From Bacilli bacterium (lineage in GTDB: Bacteria > Bacillota_I > Bacilli_A > ML615J-28 > CAG-313), in contig JAFTPH010000045.1 in assembly GCA_017463365.1 (NCBI GenBank), positions 1-52,635 on the forward strand: a DNA stretch of 52,635 nt, written 5' to 3'. The first letter of the stretch is position 1. Each line of letters begins with the position of its first letter. Both the position numbers and the translations under genes were made by a program. Positions 1,522 through 52,635 of the stretch are shown piece after piece. Below the pieces are notes generated by a model. That model did not search any database and was not told the origin of the DNA. It worked only from the letters and a program-made list of their open reading frames with translations.

Positions 1522-2430
1522 TTATATTTCAAATACTTTACTATCAATTATCTTTTGAATTGCTGAAATTGCTTCATTATAGCTAACAACTTTTGATAAC
1601 AAGATCTCGGTAGCATTTTCATAATCTTTTTTATAATATTTGGTATCTATTATTTTTTGAAGTAATTCATTAATATTTATATTTTCTTTAGCGGAATAGC
1701 TTTTTATTCCGTCTTTTCTTTCTTCTCTTACCCTTATCATCAATTCTTTTAAATTTTCATCCAACTTTACCACTGTTACTAGTCTTGATAAATCATAGAT
1801 GTGACGTGATAATCTTTCTGTTCTACCATCTATCATGTAATCGCATATCGCAAACACTTTATCAATAAGTGTTCTTTCTAAAGATTGAACATTAATATCA
1901 AAAGGAAACAACTCGTATTTTTCAACAGCAATAAGATTACTTTTTTCCAAAAGATAGTCGTAAATGATTGATGTAGCTTGTCTTACTTCACTTGGATATG
2001 CTTTTGATATATAAGTTGTCTCAACTAAAAGCAATGGTTTAATACTAGTAGAAGGATATTTTATAGGATATTCAATCTTATAACAATTAAAGTTTCTTCT
2101 ACTTCTTATTTCTTCGATATTTGTTATATCAAATTTTATTTTTTCACAAACATTTATCATTTCTTTTTTTAAATGTCTTTTCTGACCTTGAGTTAAACAT
2201 TTTTCATTTAGTGTTAGATCAATATCTTCAGAAAATCGATTTATTAGTTTATAGCATTTTGATAAAGATGTTCCACCTTTAAATACTATATTAGGTACAC
2301 TTTTAACCAATTCTTTTAAAATTAGTGTAACATAATAATCTTTCTCGACTAAAGATGGATCAATATTGTAATGATTACTTACAATTCTAATTAAATTTAT
2401 AAATTCTTTTTCATTGTTGTGCAATTTCAT
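1522..2430 (-). CDS. AbiEii/AbiGii-family nucleotidyltransferase toxin
   Basis: This 302-residue protein is the toxin half of an AbiE-type (type IV) toxin-antitoxin / abortive infection system. The nucleotidyltransferase signature is clear: VFKGGTSLSKCYKLINRFSE near residues 48-67, followed by DIDLTL, which gives the GG-S and D-x-D metal-binding motifs. An upstream Lys in the VEKDYY motif near residue 30 is also typical. Family members characterised elsewhere transfer nucleotides to tRNA acceptor ends; that activity is inferred here. The reading frame overlaps the 3' end of the antitoxin gene by 20 bases, so the pair is translationally coupled in the classical antitoxin-first order. The gene looks intact, about family length (~300 aa). 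No hairpin terminator is evident after it. Confidence 0.88.
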   Translation of the reverse strand: MKLHNNEKEFINLIRIVSNHYNIDPSLVEKDYYVTLILKELVKSVPNIVFKGGTSLSKCYKLINRFSEDIDLTLNEKCLTQGQKRHLKKEMINVCEKIKFDITNIEEIRSRRNFNCYKIEYPIKYPSTSIKPLLLVETTYISKAYPSEVRQATSIIYDYLLEKSNLIAVEKYELFPFDINVQSLERTLIDKVFAICDYMIDGRTERLSRHIYDLSRLVTVVKLDENLKELMIRVREERKDGIKSYSAKENININELLQKIIDTKYYKKDYENATEILLSKVVSYNEAISAIQKIIDSKVFEI

Positions 2431-3043
2431 ATAATACCCCGCTTATTACTAAATTTTTCATTGTCTTTGCGGGAAAATACGATGCTAAATCGTAAATCAT
2501 TTTAATATTAATTTTATTTTCCTTGATAAATTCCTTTATACTTTTTTGTATTGTATTATTTTCCTTATATTGTTTTAAATTTATCTTATTAAAAAGCTCC
2601 ATAAGAGTATATCCATAAACATTTTCTTTGTTAATTTGTACCCTTGCTTTTCTAAGAATTACTTTCCGCCCTCCTATCTCTATTTCACGTATATCCCGTG
2701 ATTCTTTATTGGTGATTACTTCGATTTTGTTTGGCACTTGATAGCTTATTAAAAAATTCAAATCAATTACGCTTTTTCCGTATATTCCAAATATTTCTCC
2801 TTCATCTTGAATATATTTACGTTTAACAACTTCATTGACCGTAATTGATGTGTGACCAAATTCGCTATTTGTAGGAATATAGTATATTCCCATATCAAAT
2901 CTAATAAGACTCTTTTTGTTTATCTCTTCAGAAATTAGTTGATATACCCTTTGTCGTGAATAATCATTCATGCATTTCAATATATCTTCCGTAAAGATTG
3001 GTGTATCATAACCATATCGATCTAATAACCTTTTTATTAACAT
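2411..3043 (-). CDS. AbiEi-type antitoxin / transcriptional regulator (DUF6088-like)
   Basis: The protein has 210 residues. The N-terminal ~60 form a winged-helix-like region (DYSRQRVYQLISEEINKKSLIRFDMGIYYIP), as in AbiEi antitoxins, which bind and repress their own promoter. The rest matches the DUF6088/AbiEi C-terminal pattern (GYTLMELFNKI, then helices). The start is set by AGAGGTG five bases before the ATG at 3043. It is the first gene of a two-gene operon with the AbiEii toxin. A TTGACA-17-TATAAT promoter and a pair of inverted TAGACAA/TTGTCTA repeats lie directly upstream, consistent with negative autoregulation. Family assignment is from pattern recognition, not from a search. Confidence 0.8.
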   Translation of the reverse strand: MLIKRLLDRYGYDTPIFTEDILKCMNDYSRQRVYQLISEEINKKSLIRFDMGIYYIPTNSEFGHTSITVNEVVKRKYIQDEGEIFGIYGKSVIDLNFLISYQVPNKIEVITNKESRDIREIEIGGRKVILRKARVQINKENVYGYTLMELFNKINLKQYKENNTIQKSIKEFIKENKINIKMIYDLASYFPAKTMKNLVISGVLYEIAQQ

Positions 3044-8906: not shown

Positions 8907-9632
8907 ATGAATTTCGAAAAAATAAAACAAATAATTAAGGATAATGAGATAAAAATGAGCATTGGTACTAAACAAGAACGTACCCTTCATCAATATTTAA
9001 AATACTATTTTTGTGATAACCCAGATTATCATGAACAAAAATGTGGTAGTTATATTGTTGATATTTTAAAAAATGAACAGATTATCGAAATTCAAACATC
9101 TTCTTTTAATGCTATGCGTAAAAAATTAGAATCGCTATTACCTAATTATCCCATTACTATTGTTTATCCTATAATTGTTGAAAAAAAGATTCACAACTAT
9201 GATGAAAACGGACAATTTGTTAGTTCTAAAAAATCACCTAAAAAAGAACATCCTTTAAAGATAGGAAAAGAGTTATATAAACTCAACCATATATTAAACA
9301 ACAAAAACTTAAATTTTATTTGTACAATTTTAAAAATTGATGAACATCGTATACCATATCTTAATAGATATAAACAAAAAAGAATGACAAGGATTAATCA
9401 AATACCTTATGAATTAGTAGAAAATATTAATTTAAAAGAAGGAAATACTCTAGCTTCTTTAATTCCCTTTGATAAAGAGTTTACCGCATTAGAATTTAAA
9501 AAGAAACTAAAGCTTTCTCCAAGAGAAACTAGTTCTACACTAATTGCTTTAAGAACTTTAAATGTAATTAAAGTAACAAGACAAGATGGTAAAAAATACA
9601 TCTATGAAGTAATAGGAAAGACCCCTAATTAA
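8907..9632 (+). CDS. orphan PD-(D/E)XK-like protein with C-terminal winged helix
   Basis: A 241-residue protein of a widespread uncharacterised family. Residues ~20-70 carry a restriction-endonuclease-like pattern: ERTLHQYLKYYF (Glu24), YIVDILKNEQIIEIQTSSF with Asp52, Glu61 and Gln63 arranged as D-x8-E-x-Q. A basic helix follows (MRKKLESLLPN). The C-terminal ~70 residues (EFTALEFKKKLKLSPRETSSTLIALRTLNVIKVTRQ) look like a winged helix. No methyltransferase or specificity partner is adjacent, so it is not an ordinary restriction system; it may act on DNA or RNA in repair or housekeeping. The ribosome site is weak (GGTGAT). The terminator stem begins inside the last codons. Confidence 0.7.
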   Translation: MNFEKIKQIIKDNEIKMSIGTKQERTLHQYLKYYFCDNPDYHEQKCGSYIVDILKNEQIIEIQTSSFNAMRKKLESLLPNYPITIVYPIIVEKKIHNYDENGQFVSSKKSPKKEHPLKIGKELYKLNHILNNKNLNFICTILKIDEHRIPYLNRYKQKRMTRINQIPYELVENINLKEGNTLASLIPFDKEFTALEFKKKLKLSPRETSSTLIALRTLNVIKVTRQDGKKYIYEVIGKTPN

Positions 9633-42061: not shown

Positions 42062-42089
42062 TGGGTTAAAAGATAACTTTTAACCCATT
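42060..42089. terminator. shared terminator between rhodanese and spoIIE
   Basis: Perfect 13-bp stem AATGGGTTAAAAG (42060-42072) / CTTTTAACCCATT (42077-42089); T runs occur on both strands, and the spoIIE stop lies in the stem. Confidence 0.8.
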
Positions 42090-44218
42090 TTAATTTTTAA
42101 AGCAATTAATGTCATATCATCTTTTACTTTTAACTTTTGTTTCATTGTATAATTAATTAATTCATAAACAATTTTTTGAGGAGATTCCTCTTTAATACTT
42201 AAAATATACTTTTCTAAAGCAGCGTCATCTAAAATATTTTCAAATATTCCATCACTACTCATCAATATTAGATCATCGTCTTCTAAAAAATAGTTATAAT
42301 TTTCTATTGAATCATCTATTCCAAACGGCAAATTTCGATTAACAACTTTTTCGATTTTGCCGCTTTTTTTAACAATATATGTAGTAGTTGCTCCCATCTT
42401 ATAAAACTTTGCCATTTTAGTATAACGATTTATTTCTAATAAATCCAGGGTTGCGTAACGTTCTAAATACTCCTGTACCGCATAAAATGTATTAAGAATC
42501 TCTAACGATGTTGAAGAAGAAATACTTAATTCTGCTAACTCATTTATTAATTTTAATGTTGTATTACTTTCACAAAATGCGTTATATCCTTTTCCCATTC
42601 CATCAGAGATTGCTGTGACAAACTTACCATTATTAAAGTTTTTAACCATATAATTATCCCCACAAATATGTTCTCCTTCTCCACTAACAGAAGCACTTCC
42701 ATAAATGATATCAACCTTAATTTCCGGAATAATTCTTATTACTTCTTCATCTTGAATAATGCTTACAGGCGTATTTAAAAAAGAAGAAACAATACTTTTT
42801 AAACCTTCAAGACTCTTTTCATTACAATCATTTAAACTAAGTTCAATCAAAAAATCATCTTTAAAGGCTCTTTTCAGTTCAAACTCCTTGATATCAAATC
42901 CATACATTATTAATTTTTGTTTTAGCTTTTTTATTTCTTCATACTTTAATTCTTCTTTAGATACTATTTCTGTTATATAGTTTTTAATTGAAGATGATAC
43001 TCCAGTTATTTGTGCAATTAACGCGTTATTACTTGATTCATCTTGATTTAATTCAATTCGATAATTAATGTTTTTAGCCGTCGAACAAATATTTTTCGAA
43101 TAATAACAACCATTAATAAACTCCCTCATTTCCTTATTATATAAGTCTTTTTGGAGAATTAAACTTTTAAAATATGGATAAATAACATTTTTATGTTTCT
43201 CAAAACATTCTTTTTTCTTTGGACAAACATTACAATGTCTTTGAAATAAAATAGAAATAGCCTCAGTTAATTTATCATTATACGTTTTAGAAACCTTAAA
43301 GTTTTCCACAAACTTATCTAACACTTCTGCGAAACTAAGCATTTCATTACTAAAGTTTTCGGCCATTTGATTATAAATTCCTTCTCTAATTACTTCTTCA
43401 GTTTCATATTCTTTTCCTAAAAAATACCTTATAACCTCAAAAAACAAACTTATAATCATTAGTCCTACCATTGTTATATCATTATAACCGGTATTTAAGA
43501 TAATTACAATTAGGGAAAATGCATTTAAAATTATTACTGGATAAACAAATGGTAAAAAGTAAAAAACGCCAATAAACGGCAAAAATAACGCCTCATTTTG
43601 CCCAAAAAAGACATATTGAACAACTAAAACTAACATTGATAAAATGACCGTATAAATATTTTTCCATGAGTTTGACGCATACATAACAAAATATGCAGCT
43701 ACCAAAAAACCCATATTTACCTCAAACACATAAACATTTGAACTACCTAAAATACATATCAAACATATAAATACTTCAGAGACAATCTGATTGTATAAAT
43801 AACTATTTATTTTTAAAGCTTCAAATAAATTCTTTTCAAAATACATATAAAGCAACATACTTAATGCTGATAATCCAAGAAACATTCCAACATCATTTAT
43901 CCCTTTAAAAGTAATAATATATGTTACAAAATTCAATAATCCAACAATTATGTACATATAATATCCCTTAGATAAATACTTCATAATCCACAAAATAAAT
44001 AATAATAAAATAACCAAAATACCATACGACACCAAATAACTTGTGCCAGTAAAAATTAGTAAACTAACTAGACTACTAGGAATAATATAGTAAATATACT
44101 TATAATCTTTTAATAAATAAAAAAAGACAACCGGTATATATAACAAAAAACCAATATCAAGTAGTACAGTTAACACTGAAAAGAAAGATACAATTACCAA
44201 ATTAAACTTTTTAAACAT
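42080..44218 (-). CDS. spoIIE: stage II sporulation protein E, membrane PP2C phosphatase
   Basis: A 712-residue SpoIIE. About ten membrane segments fill residues 1-265; the middle region holds a Cys cluster (CNVCPKKKEC) typical of the family; the C-terminal PP2C phosphatase runs from ~505 (SGEGEHICGDNYM, TAISDGMGKGYNAFCE, LILMSSDGIFENILDD, DDMTLIALKI). It dephosphorylates SpoIIAA to release sigma-F in the forespore. Shorter than the Bacillus protein (~827). Start at 44218 has GAGGTG 6 bases upstream. A Spo0A-box-like TGTCAAA lies upstream of the -10. Confidence 0.93.
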   Translation of the reverse strand: MFKKFNLVIVSFFSVLTVLLDIGFLLYIPVVFFYLLKDYKYIYYIIPSSLVSLLIFTGTSYLVSYGILVILLLFILWIMKYLSKGYYMYIIVGLLNFVTYIITFKGINDVGMFLGLSALSMLLYMYFEKNLFEALKINSYLYNQIVSEVFICLICILGSSNVYVFEVNMGFLVAAYFVMYASNSWKNIYTVILSMLVLVVQYVFFGQNEALFLPFIGVFYFLPFVYPVIILNAFSLIVIILNTGYNDITMVGLMIISLFFEVIRYFLGKEYETEEVIREGIYNQMAENFSNEMLSFAEVLDKFVENFKVSKTYNDKLTEAISILFQRHCNVCPKKKECFEKHKNVIYPYFKSLILQKDLYNKEMREFINGCYYSKNICSTAKNINYRIELNQDESSNNALIAQITGVSSSIKNYITEIVSKEELKYEEIKKLKQKLIMYGFDIKEFELKRAFKDDFLIELSLNDCNEKSLEGLKSIVSSFLNTPVSIIQDEEVIRIIPEIKVDIIYGSASVSGEGEHICGDNYMVKNFNNGKFVTAISDGMGKGYNAFCESNTTLKLINELAELSISSSTSLEILNTFYAVQEYLERYATLDLLEINRYTKMAKFYKMGATTTYIVKKSGKIEKVVNRNLPFGIDDSIENYNYFLEDDDLILMSSDGIFENILDDAALEKYILSIKEESPQKIVYELINYTMKQKLKVKDDMTLIALKIKMG

Positions 44219-44238
44219 CCTAATCACCTCATAAAAAT

Positions 44239-45375: not shown

Positions 45376-47334
45376 TTATATATTAAATTCTCTTCTTAAT
45401 CCCCAAAGAACTTCAACCATTGCCCAAGTATCTTGTTGACAATATTTTCTTAAAGCTAAATATTTTTCTTCATACTCTTTATCAGTTAAAGTTGGCAATA
45501 ATCCATACACATATACCGCTTCAGTTCCATTGTGTACCTCTAAATTAGCATACGAAAGATCGGTAAATATTGGGAGAACTTTTTTAATTGAATAAGACCC
45601 ATGAAGATTATTATGATAATAATTAATTTCTTTAGCAAGTTCTTCTTTTTCCTTACTATCAAGTTCATTAGATAATAATGGATAAAACATCTTTGAATTA
45701 CCCTTCAAAACAAACAACAAATCAAATACATGGTCTCTAATATTTAATAAATCTTCTGCTAAATCAGGATATATTTTAGCAAGTTCTTTTAACCTTGTTT
45801 TTTCAAAGGCCTCATTATAGACAATTACCGTTCCACCATTTGATAAATCAATATTTTTAATTAGCGATTCACAAAGTTCTCTACGACAATCACTATGATC
45901 TTTAGCTAAAAATTCATAATGATCTTTTTCTTTATCACATACAAAAGGTTCTTTTTCAATATGTAAAGAATATTGAAACAAAGACTGAGTATATGGTTTT
46001 TCTCCTTCATATCTTGGGAATGGACAACCATAAGATTCAAAATCTAAGTGATATAGTGGATATTTTAAAGATTTAATCGCCAAAGTAATCTTTTCCTCAT
46101 TTATAAACGTTTTATTACATACATAACAATCATACTGAATTTGATTAACCTTTTTACCTAAATAGTCTTTAGGAATACTGTCTATTTTATAACAACCTTG
46201 GTTTAAAAGATCATATACACTTAACGAATCATAACCTGTATCTTTTCCCCCAAACGCATACTTTTTATTTATGTACTCTAAGATTGAACCATCACAAAGA
46301 GTATTTTTAAAACAAACTTTTTTAAACTTACATTCCGATGGTTTCTTTAATTCACAATGATCGCCAACACAACGACCTTCAATCACTCTTTCCTCAATTC
46401 GGTCCTCTATTTTTTTACGATCAATGTCAATTTGTTCTAAAAATTCTTCTGTAATTTTACTTACATCTACTAAAGTAATTAAATCGTTCCCATTTTCATT
46501 TTGGTTATAAAGACGCATTCCCTCATTATCCCGACAGCCATCATATATATAATCGCCATTTAAAACAACTAAATAATACTCAATATTAGGTTTTTTATCC
46601 TTGTAGCTATTTTCAATAAAATATCTTTCAACCGCGATATCATAAACATATTTCCCTGTTCCATCACTACCAAATCTATCAAACATCTTATTACGATAAG
46701 CCCTATACTTCTTATCTTCTAAAAGAGTTGGATCAAGATTTTCTTTTAATCTTAAAATTCCTTTTTCATCTTTATAAAAAATAGAATCATACTTATCATA
46801 ACCTAACGCATCATCACCCACTTGTTTTTTAAGACTTTTACCAAGACGATAAAACTTATTTGTTGTAGTTGCCTTTACCTCAAAAATCTTAATACTACCA
46901 TCCGGAGCTTCTAAATATATATCCAAATAACAATAATATGTATTCCCGTTTACTGAAAACTCATACTTCTTTTGTTGCTTAGTATCTTCGGAATACACCA
47001 ATTCCCCATCAAAGTTGTTCTTAATGTATTCCGCAGCAAAAACTTCTAATTCCTTAAAATATTCCGCATACGCTTCCATTTGGGCATTCGTAGAAATTGT
47101 TAAATCTTCCCCTGTTTCCTCATCAAAAATACTATTAAAGATTTCCATTGCCTTCTCATGTTCTTCGGAAAATAACCCATCTTCTAATGTATCAACTGCC
47201 GATTTAATTGAAGCAACATCTACCCCTTCAATCTCTTTTATATGGTGAGCATTTCTAAATACATACATATCATATATGCTAGCAAAGTCCTTGCATCTTG
47301 ATAAATTCTTAAACATTGATTTAGATATATTCAT
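45376..47334 (-). CDS. DUF2779 protein: Cas4/AddB-like PD-(D/E)XK domain plus DEDD exonuclease-like domain
   Basis: The protein has 652 residues. The N-terminal half has a PD-(D/E)XK core (Asp138 in YCYLDIYLE, Glu152 and Lys154 in FEVKATT). Cys14 (SKSMFKNLSRCKDF) together with Cys322/327/335/341 could bind an Fe-S cluster as in Cas4 and AddB. After a short linker, the DUF2779 half shows YPLYHLDFESYG (Asp431, Glu433), a middle Asp region (NIRDHVFDLLFVL) and YCQQDTWAMVEVLWGL (Tyr631, Asp635), the DEDDy-like exonuclease pattern. The family is common in Mollicutes and relatives but not well characterised. No cas genes are nearby. Confidence 0.8.
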   Translation of the reverse strand: MNISKSMFKNLSRCKDFASIYDMYVFRNAHHIKEIEGVDVASIKSAVDTLEDGLFSEEHEKAMEIFNSIFDEETGEDLTISTNAQMEAYAEYFKELEVFAAEYIKNNFDGELVYSEDTKQQKKYEFSVNGNTYYCYLDIYLEAPDGSIKIFEVKATTTNKFYRLGKSLKKQVGDDALGYDKYDSIFYKDEKGILRLKENLDPTLLEDKKYRAYRNKMFDRFGSDGTGKYVYDIAVERYFIENSYKDKKPNIEYYLVVLNGDYIYDGCRDNEGMRLYNQNENGNDLITLVDVSKITEEFLEQIDIDRKKIEDRIEERVIEGRCVGDHCELKKPSECKFKKVCFKNTLCDGSILEYINKKYAFGGKDTGYDSLSVYDLLNQGCYKIDSIPKDYLGKKVNQIQYDCYVCNKTFINEEKITLAIKSLKYPLYHLDFESYGCPFPRYEGEKPYTQSLFQYSLHIEKEPFVCDKEKDHYEFLAKDHSDCRRELCESLIKNIDLSNGGTVIVYNEAFEKTRLKELAKIYPDLAEDLLNIRDHVFDLLFVLKGNSKMFYPLLSNELDSKEKEELAKEINYYHNNLHGSYSIKKVLPIFTDLSYANLEVHNGTEAVYVYGLLPTLTDKEYEEKYLALRKYCQQDTWAMVEVLWGLRREFNI

Positions 47335-51611: not shown

Positions 51612-51687
51612 TGGTTGCGGGAGAAGGACTTGAACCTACGACCTCCGGGTTATGAGCCCGGTGAGCTACCAACTGCTCTACCCCGCG
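51612..51687 (-). tRNA. initiator tRNA-fMet (CAT)
   Basis: Starts CGCGGGG with C1 facing A72 (unpaired), and the anticodon stem CCGGG/CCCGG has three G-C pairs around loop CTCATAA. Both are initiator hallmarks. CCA encoded. Confidence 0.95.
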
Positions 51688-51697
51688 ATAGAAAAAA

Positions 51698-51788
51698 TGG
51701 CGGAGAAAGAGGGATTCGAACCCCCGCGGCTGTTACACCCTGTCGGTTTTCAAGACCGATCCCTTCAGCCAGACTTGGGTATTTCTCC
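51698..51788 (-). tRNA. tRNA-Ser (TGA)
   Basis: Acceptor GGAGAAA/TTTCTCC, discriminator G; anticodon stem TCGGT/ACCGA with loop CTTGAAA (TGA); long variable arm; CCA encoded. 91 bases. Confidence 0.95.
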
Positions 51789-51805
51789 GTTTATAAATGT
51801 TTTTC

Positions 51806-51882
51806 TGGTGGACCCAACAGGACTCGAACCTGTGACCAACCGGTTATGAGCCGGGAGCTCTAACCAACTGAGCTACGGGTCC
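51806..51882 (-). tRNA. tRNA with CAT anticodon, probably tRNA-Ile2 (lysidine)
   Basis: Acceptor GGACCCG/TTGGGTCC; anticodon loop CTCATAA. The body (GGACC, GTTGGTTAGAGC, GGCTCATAACC, ATTCGAG-like T arm) resembles Bacillus tRNA-Ile2 rather than elongator Met. An elongator Met is present next to it, supporting Ile2 (TilS substrate). Confidence 0.8.
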
Positions 51883-52279: not shown

Positions 52280-52355
52280 TGGTGCCGACTATAGGAATTG
52301 AACCCACAACCTACTGATTACAAGTCAGTTGCTCTACCGATTGAGCTAAGTCGGC
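52280..52355 (-). tRNA. tRNA-Thr (TGT)
   Basis: Acceptor GCCGACT/AGTCGGC; anticodon stem ACTGA/TCAGT with loop CTTGTAA (TGT); CCA encoded. Confidence 0.95.
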
Positions 52356-52365
52356 ATTTCTTAAA

Positions 52366-52441
52366 TGGTGGAGGATGACGGGCTCGAACCGCCGACCCTC
52401 TGCTTGTAAGGCAGATGCTCTCCCAACTGAGCTAATCCTCC
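52366..52441 (-). tRNA. tRNA-Val (TAC)
   Basis: Acceptor GGAGGAT/ATCCTCC; anticodon stem TCTGC/GCAGA with loop CTTACAA (TAC); CCA encoded. First tRNA after the 5S rRNA. Confidence 0.95.
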
Positions 52442-52503
52442 ATATGTAGTTATTATACCACAATCTTTTGAAAAAATAAAATAATTTAATAAAATTATAG
52501 AAA

Positions 52504-52616
52504 GGAGAAGGCAACGTCCTATTTTCGCTCGTTAGAACTATCGTCAGCGTTAAAGTGCTTAACTTCTGTGTTCGGCATGGGAACAGGTGTGTCCACTTTG
52601 CTGTAGTCACCTTTCT
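52504..52616 (-). rRNA. rrf: 5S ribosomal RNA
   Basis: The minus strand reads GGTGACTACAGC near its 5' end, then CCCATGCCGAACACAGAAGT (helix III/loop B) and ends GGACGTTGCC. Helix I pairs AAGGTGAC with GTTGCCTT. Exact ends are approximate. The 23S and 16S genes should lie beyond the right edge, as transcription runs leftward into the tRNA cluster. Confidence 0.93.
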
Positions 52617-52635
52617 CTCTTTCAAAATTAGATAA

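Follow-up and report, generated by a model that had tools for sequence, protein, structure and literature searches.

A DUF2779 protein with two predicted nuclease domains as a candidate stand-in for AddAB in Bacilli

The DNA analysed here, referred to as the window, is a stretch of 52,635 nucleotides from contig JAFTPH010000045.1 of a Bacilli bacterium (assembly GCA_017463365.1). On its minus strand, at exactly 45376-47334, lies an open reading frame of 652 codons and a stop, present in one copy in the genome; an earlier reading of the sequence (the initial annotation) had placed this frame correctly and proposed that its product joins two nuclease folds. The sole Pfam match in the 652-aa protein is to DUF2779 (PF11074; residues 428-582, E 4.6e-37), and the score of 127.5 bits against a gathering score of 23.3 makes it a member of that family. 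An NCBIfam match to the UU173 family (NF045869) stays below threshold (E 8.9e-17; 61.2 bits where 225 are required). The flanking genes encode a GNAT acetyltransferase and an ABC transporter, are unrelated to repair and are not common to relatives, for which reason an operon partner from the window was rejected. Elsewhere in the window, an AbiEii nucleotidyltransferase toxin gene overlaps a DUF6088 gene (1522-3043; likely a type IV toxin-antitoxin pair), a SpoIIE phosphatase with a match to the SpoIIE N-terminal region is encoded at 42080-44227 in this genome of 1.74 Mb, and a 241-aa frame at 8907-9632 has zero Pfam matches. The frames at 51615-51863 and 52311-52625 resemble familiar spurious translations of tRNA genes, and we presume that they are not protein genes.

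DUF2779 is rarely named in the literature that we searched. In the portion of Majorek et al. (2014, PMC3985635) that was available to us, it appears as family F.17 of the RNase H-like superfamily, within the 3'-5' exonuclease clade, is described as containing DUF83 (Cas4-type) and resembling PD-(D/E)XK nucleases, and is predicted to have 3'-5' exonuclease activity; the same portion assigns the family no biological role, does not analyse its cysteines and makes no connection with AddAB. The two-nuclease architecture is therefore not new. The family is absent from the Cas4 phylogenomics of Hudaiberdiev et al. (2017), and our search found no account of its role or of its distribution relative to AddAB, so that the initial annotation's phrase "role appears undescribed" holds within that search; the architecture was published in 2014.

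Homologues were collected from whole genomes of relatives and from GTDB contigs, and those of 480 aa or more, 57 in all, were aligned. The N-terminal half, resembling Cas4 and AddB, spans about residues 1-345 (46300-47334, minus strand, as for all features below) and is delimited by conservation, a model of this half and its fold matches. Its predicted PD-(D/E)XK catalytic residues, Asp138 (46921-46923) and Glu152-x-Lys154 (46873-46881), which had been proposed from the single sequence, are each found in 57/57 homologues. Equally invariant (57/57 each) are the residues of the C-terminal DEDDy exonuclease half (residues 425-652, 45379-46062, enclosing the PF11074 match at 45589-46053), namely Asp431-x-Glu433 in motif I (46036-46044), Asp538 in motif II (45721-45723) and Tyr631-x3-Asp635 in motif III (45430-45444). 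The initial annotation had recognized this pattern as well, apart from Asp538, the fourth acidic residue of the DEDD set. A linker of about residues 346-424 (46063-46299), drawn from the predicted models, joins the two halves.

The proposed cysteine cluster had to be revised. The late predicted Fe-S ligands Cys327, Cys335 and Cys341 (46312-46356) occur in all 57 homologues, and Cys14 (47293-47295), the first predicted ligand, in all 52 that include the N-terminus; Cys322 is present in just 5 of the 57. The conserved Fe-S-type cysteines are therefore four, and a five-cysteine reading was dropped. Cas4 and AddB have the same one-plus-three layout of cysteines around the nuclease core. The DUF2779 protein carries two marks of this class, the D...ExK triad and the one-plus-three cysteines, and an Fe-S cluster is predicted on that basis. 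For Cas4, four conserved cysteines are reported (PMC4176176). In mycoplasma-type homologues that read TGA as tryptophan (L064-L068, L070-L072, L074-L076 and L078), both active sites are apparently retained, with the motifs seen in most, and three of the four cysteines are left, the last often in a C-[HFY]-H motif. In these proteins the cluster may be gone, or another ligand may be used.

The full-length protein was modeled with good confidence by AlphaFold2 from an alignment of 23 sequences (mean pLDDT 85, pTM 0.83), and the N-terminal half was also folded alone. Foldseek comparison of the full model with the PDB gave no match with E below 0.001; the individually weak matches fell into two groups, DEDD exonucleases (Pop2 with probability 0.93, WRN and Pol nu) and nucleases of the RecB/Cas4 class (SduA, ACE1, EXO5, AdnAB and MGME1), with Prp8 RNase H-like domains ranking between them. 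For the N-terminal half alone, the first 17 matches were all RecB/Cas4-class PD-(D/E)XK nucleases, again individually weak (E 0.002-0.2), with probabilities of up to 0.89 (AdnAB); the first-ranked, SduA, was itself weak. A PDB search with a single DUF2779 sequence found nothing, and a profile search gave weak Cas4 and Pol gamma matches only, the best being Cas4 8d3l (E 0.048). Together, the two groups of fold matches, the models and the invariant active sites support the presence of two nuclease folds, and the two-domain architecture is well supported, with folds and active sites predicted from modeling and conservation. The C-terminal half in particular is predicted to adopt an RNase H-like exonuclease fold, in line with the published assignment (PMC3985635). 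In a viral library, DEDD exonucleases matched the model with probability up to 1.00, and giant-virus proteins, one annotated as YprB-like, matched it along both halves (E about 1e-7); three of them (BFVD A0A3G4ZWN9, E3T4R0 and A0A5K0U8I2) have a similar two-nuclease layout by fold.

We then compared the distribution of DUF2779 with that of AddAB across 296 genomes of the window's class. PF11074 was found in 162 of these, usually in one copy. By length of the open frame, the proteins were divided into a long type (about 560-710 aa, to which the window's protein belongs), a short type (about 460-530 aa) and the mycoplasma type with TGA read as tryptophan. AddA (TIGR02785) was scored as present at E 1e-30 or better; nearly all other genomes show background matches between 1e-15 and 1e-28 that we attribute to UvrD/PcrA-like helicases. 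With long and mycoplasma types combined, 100 genomes have DUF2779 without AddA, 32 have both, 12 have neither and 152 have AddA alone, so that DUF2779 occurs in 100 of 112 genomes without AddA versus 32 of 184 with it (Fisher 4e-36; family-stratified odds ratio 9.5, p 2e-9). C-terminal, nuclease-region matches to AddB (TIGR02773) adjoin AddA and do not occur in genomes without it; AddB is also undetectable in a few genomes that have AddA. The genome of the window itself has the DUF2779 nuclease and lacks AddAB, with no match to the AddB model and a background match to the AddA model (E 4e-23). The distribution of DUF2779 is complementary to that of AddAB, as would be expected of a functional analogue of AddAB or RecBCD. 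The 32 genomes with both include some closely related to that of the window, so the relationship is not one of strict replacement.

Other repair genes were used as points of comparison. MutS is retained in 24 of 30 genomes with DUF2779 and without AddA in a subset, and five of the six losses fall within one genus; AddA absence thus does not reflect general gene loss. Apart from one genus, RecD2 is present nearly throughout the tested subset, and recJ, tried as a control, is mostly absent in both groups. In family f13, recJ was found in all five tested genomes with DUF2779 and without AddAB and in 0 of 7 others, all lacking DUF2779; AddAB seems to have been exchanged there for DUF2779 plus RecJ. 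The short subfamily (L060-L063, L073 and family f19; about 490 aa), with almost the same set of conserved residues, behaves in the opposite way to the long type, AddA being present in 28 of 29 genomes.

A nuclease for general DNA repair or clean-up, acting on gaps, flaps or stalled forks beside AddAB, might give a similar picture if it marked a deep Bacilli lineage that had lost AddAB for other reasons. The 32 genomes that keep both systems would suit such an enzyme, as would the concentration of many DUF2779-positive, AddA-negative genomes within a few clades. The complementarity nevertheless persists within families f11 (11 genomes with DUF2779 alone, 1 with both, 2 with neither and 23 with AddA alone), f13 (10, 1, 1 and 10, respectively) and f10. 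To account for shared ancestry, we looked for rpoB in 158 genomes, of which 155 entered the tree; this set, completing the informative families, replaced a first subset of 78 genomes in which exceptions had been deliberately included and independent pairs gave 4.7 opposite versus 1.6 same, a trend in the same direction without significance (median p 0.45). On the 155-genome tree the pairs were 7.1 opposite versus 1.1 same (median p 0.07), or 7.5 versus 0.6 with AddA as the leading trait (median p 0.03), which is borderline. A Pagel-type test of correlated evolution on the same tree favoured dependence between DUF2779 and AddA (LRT 38.5, p 9e-8), and 0 of 60 simulated nulls reached this value, their maximum being 12; in the fit, loss of DUF2779 is rare while AddAB is absent. 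Because AddA matches of intermediate strength in f10 mostly occur without AddB, the tests were rerun with weak AddA matches scored as absent, and with stricter calls (poor genomes dropped and lineages reading TGA as tryptophan removed as well) p was about 9e-4 or lower. Since some fitted rates lie at their bounds and such tests can be misled by a few deep events, the correlation is good rather than decisive. Some exceptions are probably assembly gaps, since two genomes with near-identical rpoB (G134 and G098) differ in AddA status. Given these results, we regard the general repair nuclease as possible and rather unlikely.

Less probable still is an RNA-processing enzyme, in which the DEDDy half would act on RNA, as Pop2 or RNase D does, with the PD-(D/E)XK half merely binding nucleic acid. 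The deadenylase Pop2 is the solved structure that matches the full model with the best probability; however, the PD-(D/E)XK triad is invariant, the leading fold matches of the N-terminal half are DNA nucleases, mostly end-acting, and the distribution of the family tracks AddAB. We therefore consider this explanation improbable.

The genomic context of the family was examined in 30 loci with flanks of up to 8 kb, and the recurrent neighbours are housekeeping genes. A recX gene adjoins or lies near DUF2779 in 13 loci (11 of the 30, plus two in shorter loci), and ssb and sufB, both named by eye from sequence, occur in 11 and 9 of the 30, respectively; this recurrence is partly the synteny of one lineage. 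No cas1 or cas2 gene was found beside the DUF2779 gene in the window, and relatives' loci have housekeeping genes; with AddAB missing from the genome, the fusion does lie outside CRISPR and AddAB loci, as first described. A nuclease directed against phages or mobile elements, the defence role that the initial annotation had also suggested, has in its favour the weak fold match to the defence nuclease SduA and was rejected as very improbable, since no PADLOC family matched the protein at E up to 1, no defence genes adjoin it in the 30 loci, and it is broadly retained, as a rule in one copy per genome.

We tentatively favour, at somewhat short of an even chance, a chromosomal nuclease that processes DNA ends and substitutes for AddAB in lineages without it. 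Counting against this reading are the 32 genomes with both systems, the 12 with neither, the short subfamily that accompanies AddAB, the borderline pair tests and the window's gene neighbours, which have nothing to do with repair. The idea that the protein processes DNA ends had been raised from the sequence, and the distribution complementary to AddAB and the recurrence of recX support it indirectly. From the correlation with AddAB absence we infer a presynaptic role, and we likewise infer the Fe-S cluster, polarity, helicase partner and cellular role of the protein. By analogy with AddB and Cas4, the Fe-S PD-(D/E)XK half would attack the 5'-ended strand, and the DEDDy half, by analogy with its clade, would trim the 3'-ended strand in place of the nuclease of AddA. 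The protein has no helicase domain, so unwinding would have to be supplied in trans by a separate enzyme, for which RecD2 is the obvious candidate; the reaction would leave a single-stranded tail for RecA.

How bacteria without AddAB or RecBCD prepare DNA ends for RecA is a question raised by Rocha et al. (2005, PMC1193525), who proposed still-unknown presynaptic systems for genomes in which the known systems are missing and pointed out that mollicutes have no RecJ and might rely on another exonuclease. The DUF2779 nuclease is a named candidate for such a system. In a transposon study of Mycoplasma bovis (PMC7373297), a DUF2779 mutant and a mutant in a RecD-like helicase were among six growth-deficient mutants. 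It is conceivable, although we hold it doubtful at present, that the presynaptic nuclease still to be accounted for in mollicutes and related Bacilli is DUF2779, a single-chain, helicase-less replacement for AddAB in which an AddB-type Fe-S 5' nuclease is combined with a DEDDy 3' exonuclease and RecD2 is borrowed for unwinding. Such an arrangement, with nucleases for both strands on a single chain and no motor, would be uncommon.

Among known systems, the closest is the DUF2779 family itself, for which the consulted portion of PMC3985635 gives the same DUF83-type PD-(D/E)XK domain and RNase H-like 3'-5' exonuclease clade. The UU173 family, by its name a Ureaplasma/mycoplasma branch, matches the protein over residues 236-642, yet at 61 bits against 225, and the mycoplasma-type homologues examined differ in lacking one of the four cysteines. 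The two-nuclease proteins of COG2251/PF13482 (YprB RNase H-like) have the same pair of domains and form a separate family; PF13482 matched 5 of 23 DUF2779 members (best E 3.4e-5). Cas4 (SSO0001, matched by the N-terminal half with probability 0.85, Pcal_0546 and ACE1) shares the cysteine layout and, as far as the individually weak fold matches indicate, the core fold, whereas the DUF2779 protein is about three times longer, has a second nuclease fused to it and is not adjacent to cas1 or cas2. AddB shares the Fe-S-type one-plus-three cysteines around a PD-(D/E)XK core. It has, however, a helicase-like body and a partner, AddA, neither of which is seen in the DUF2779 protein, which instead of a partner nuclease carries a DEDDy domain in cis.
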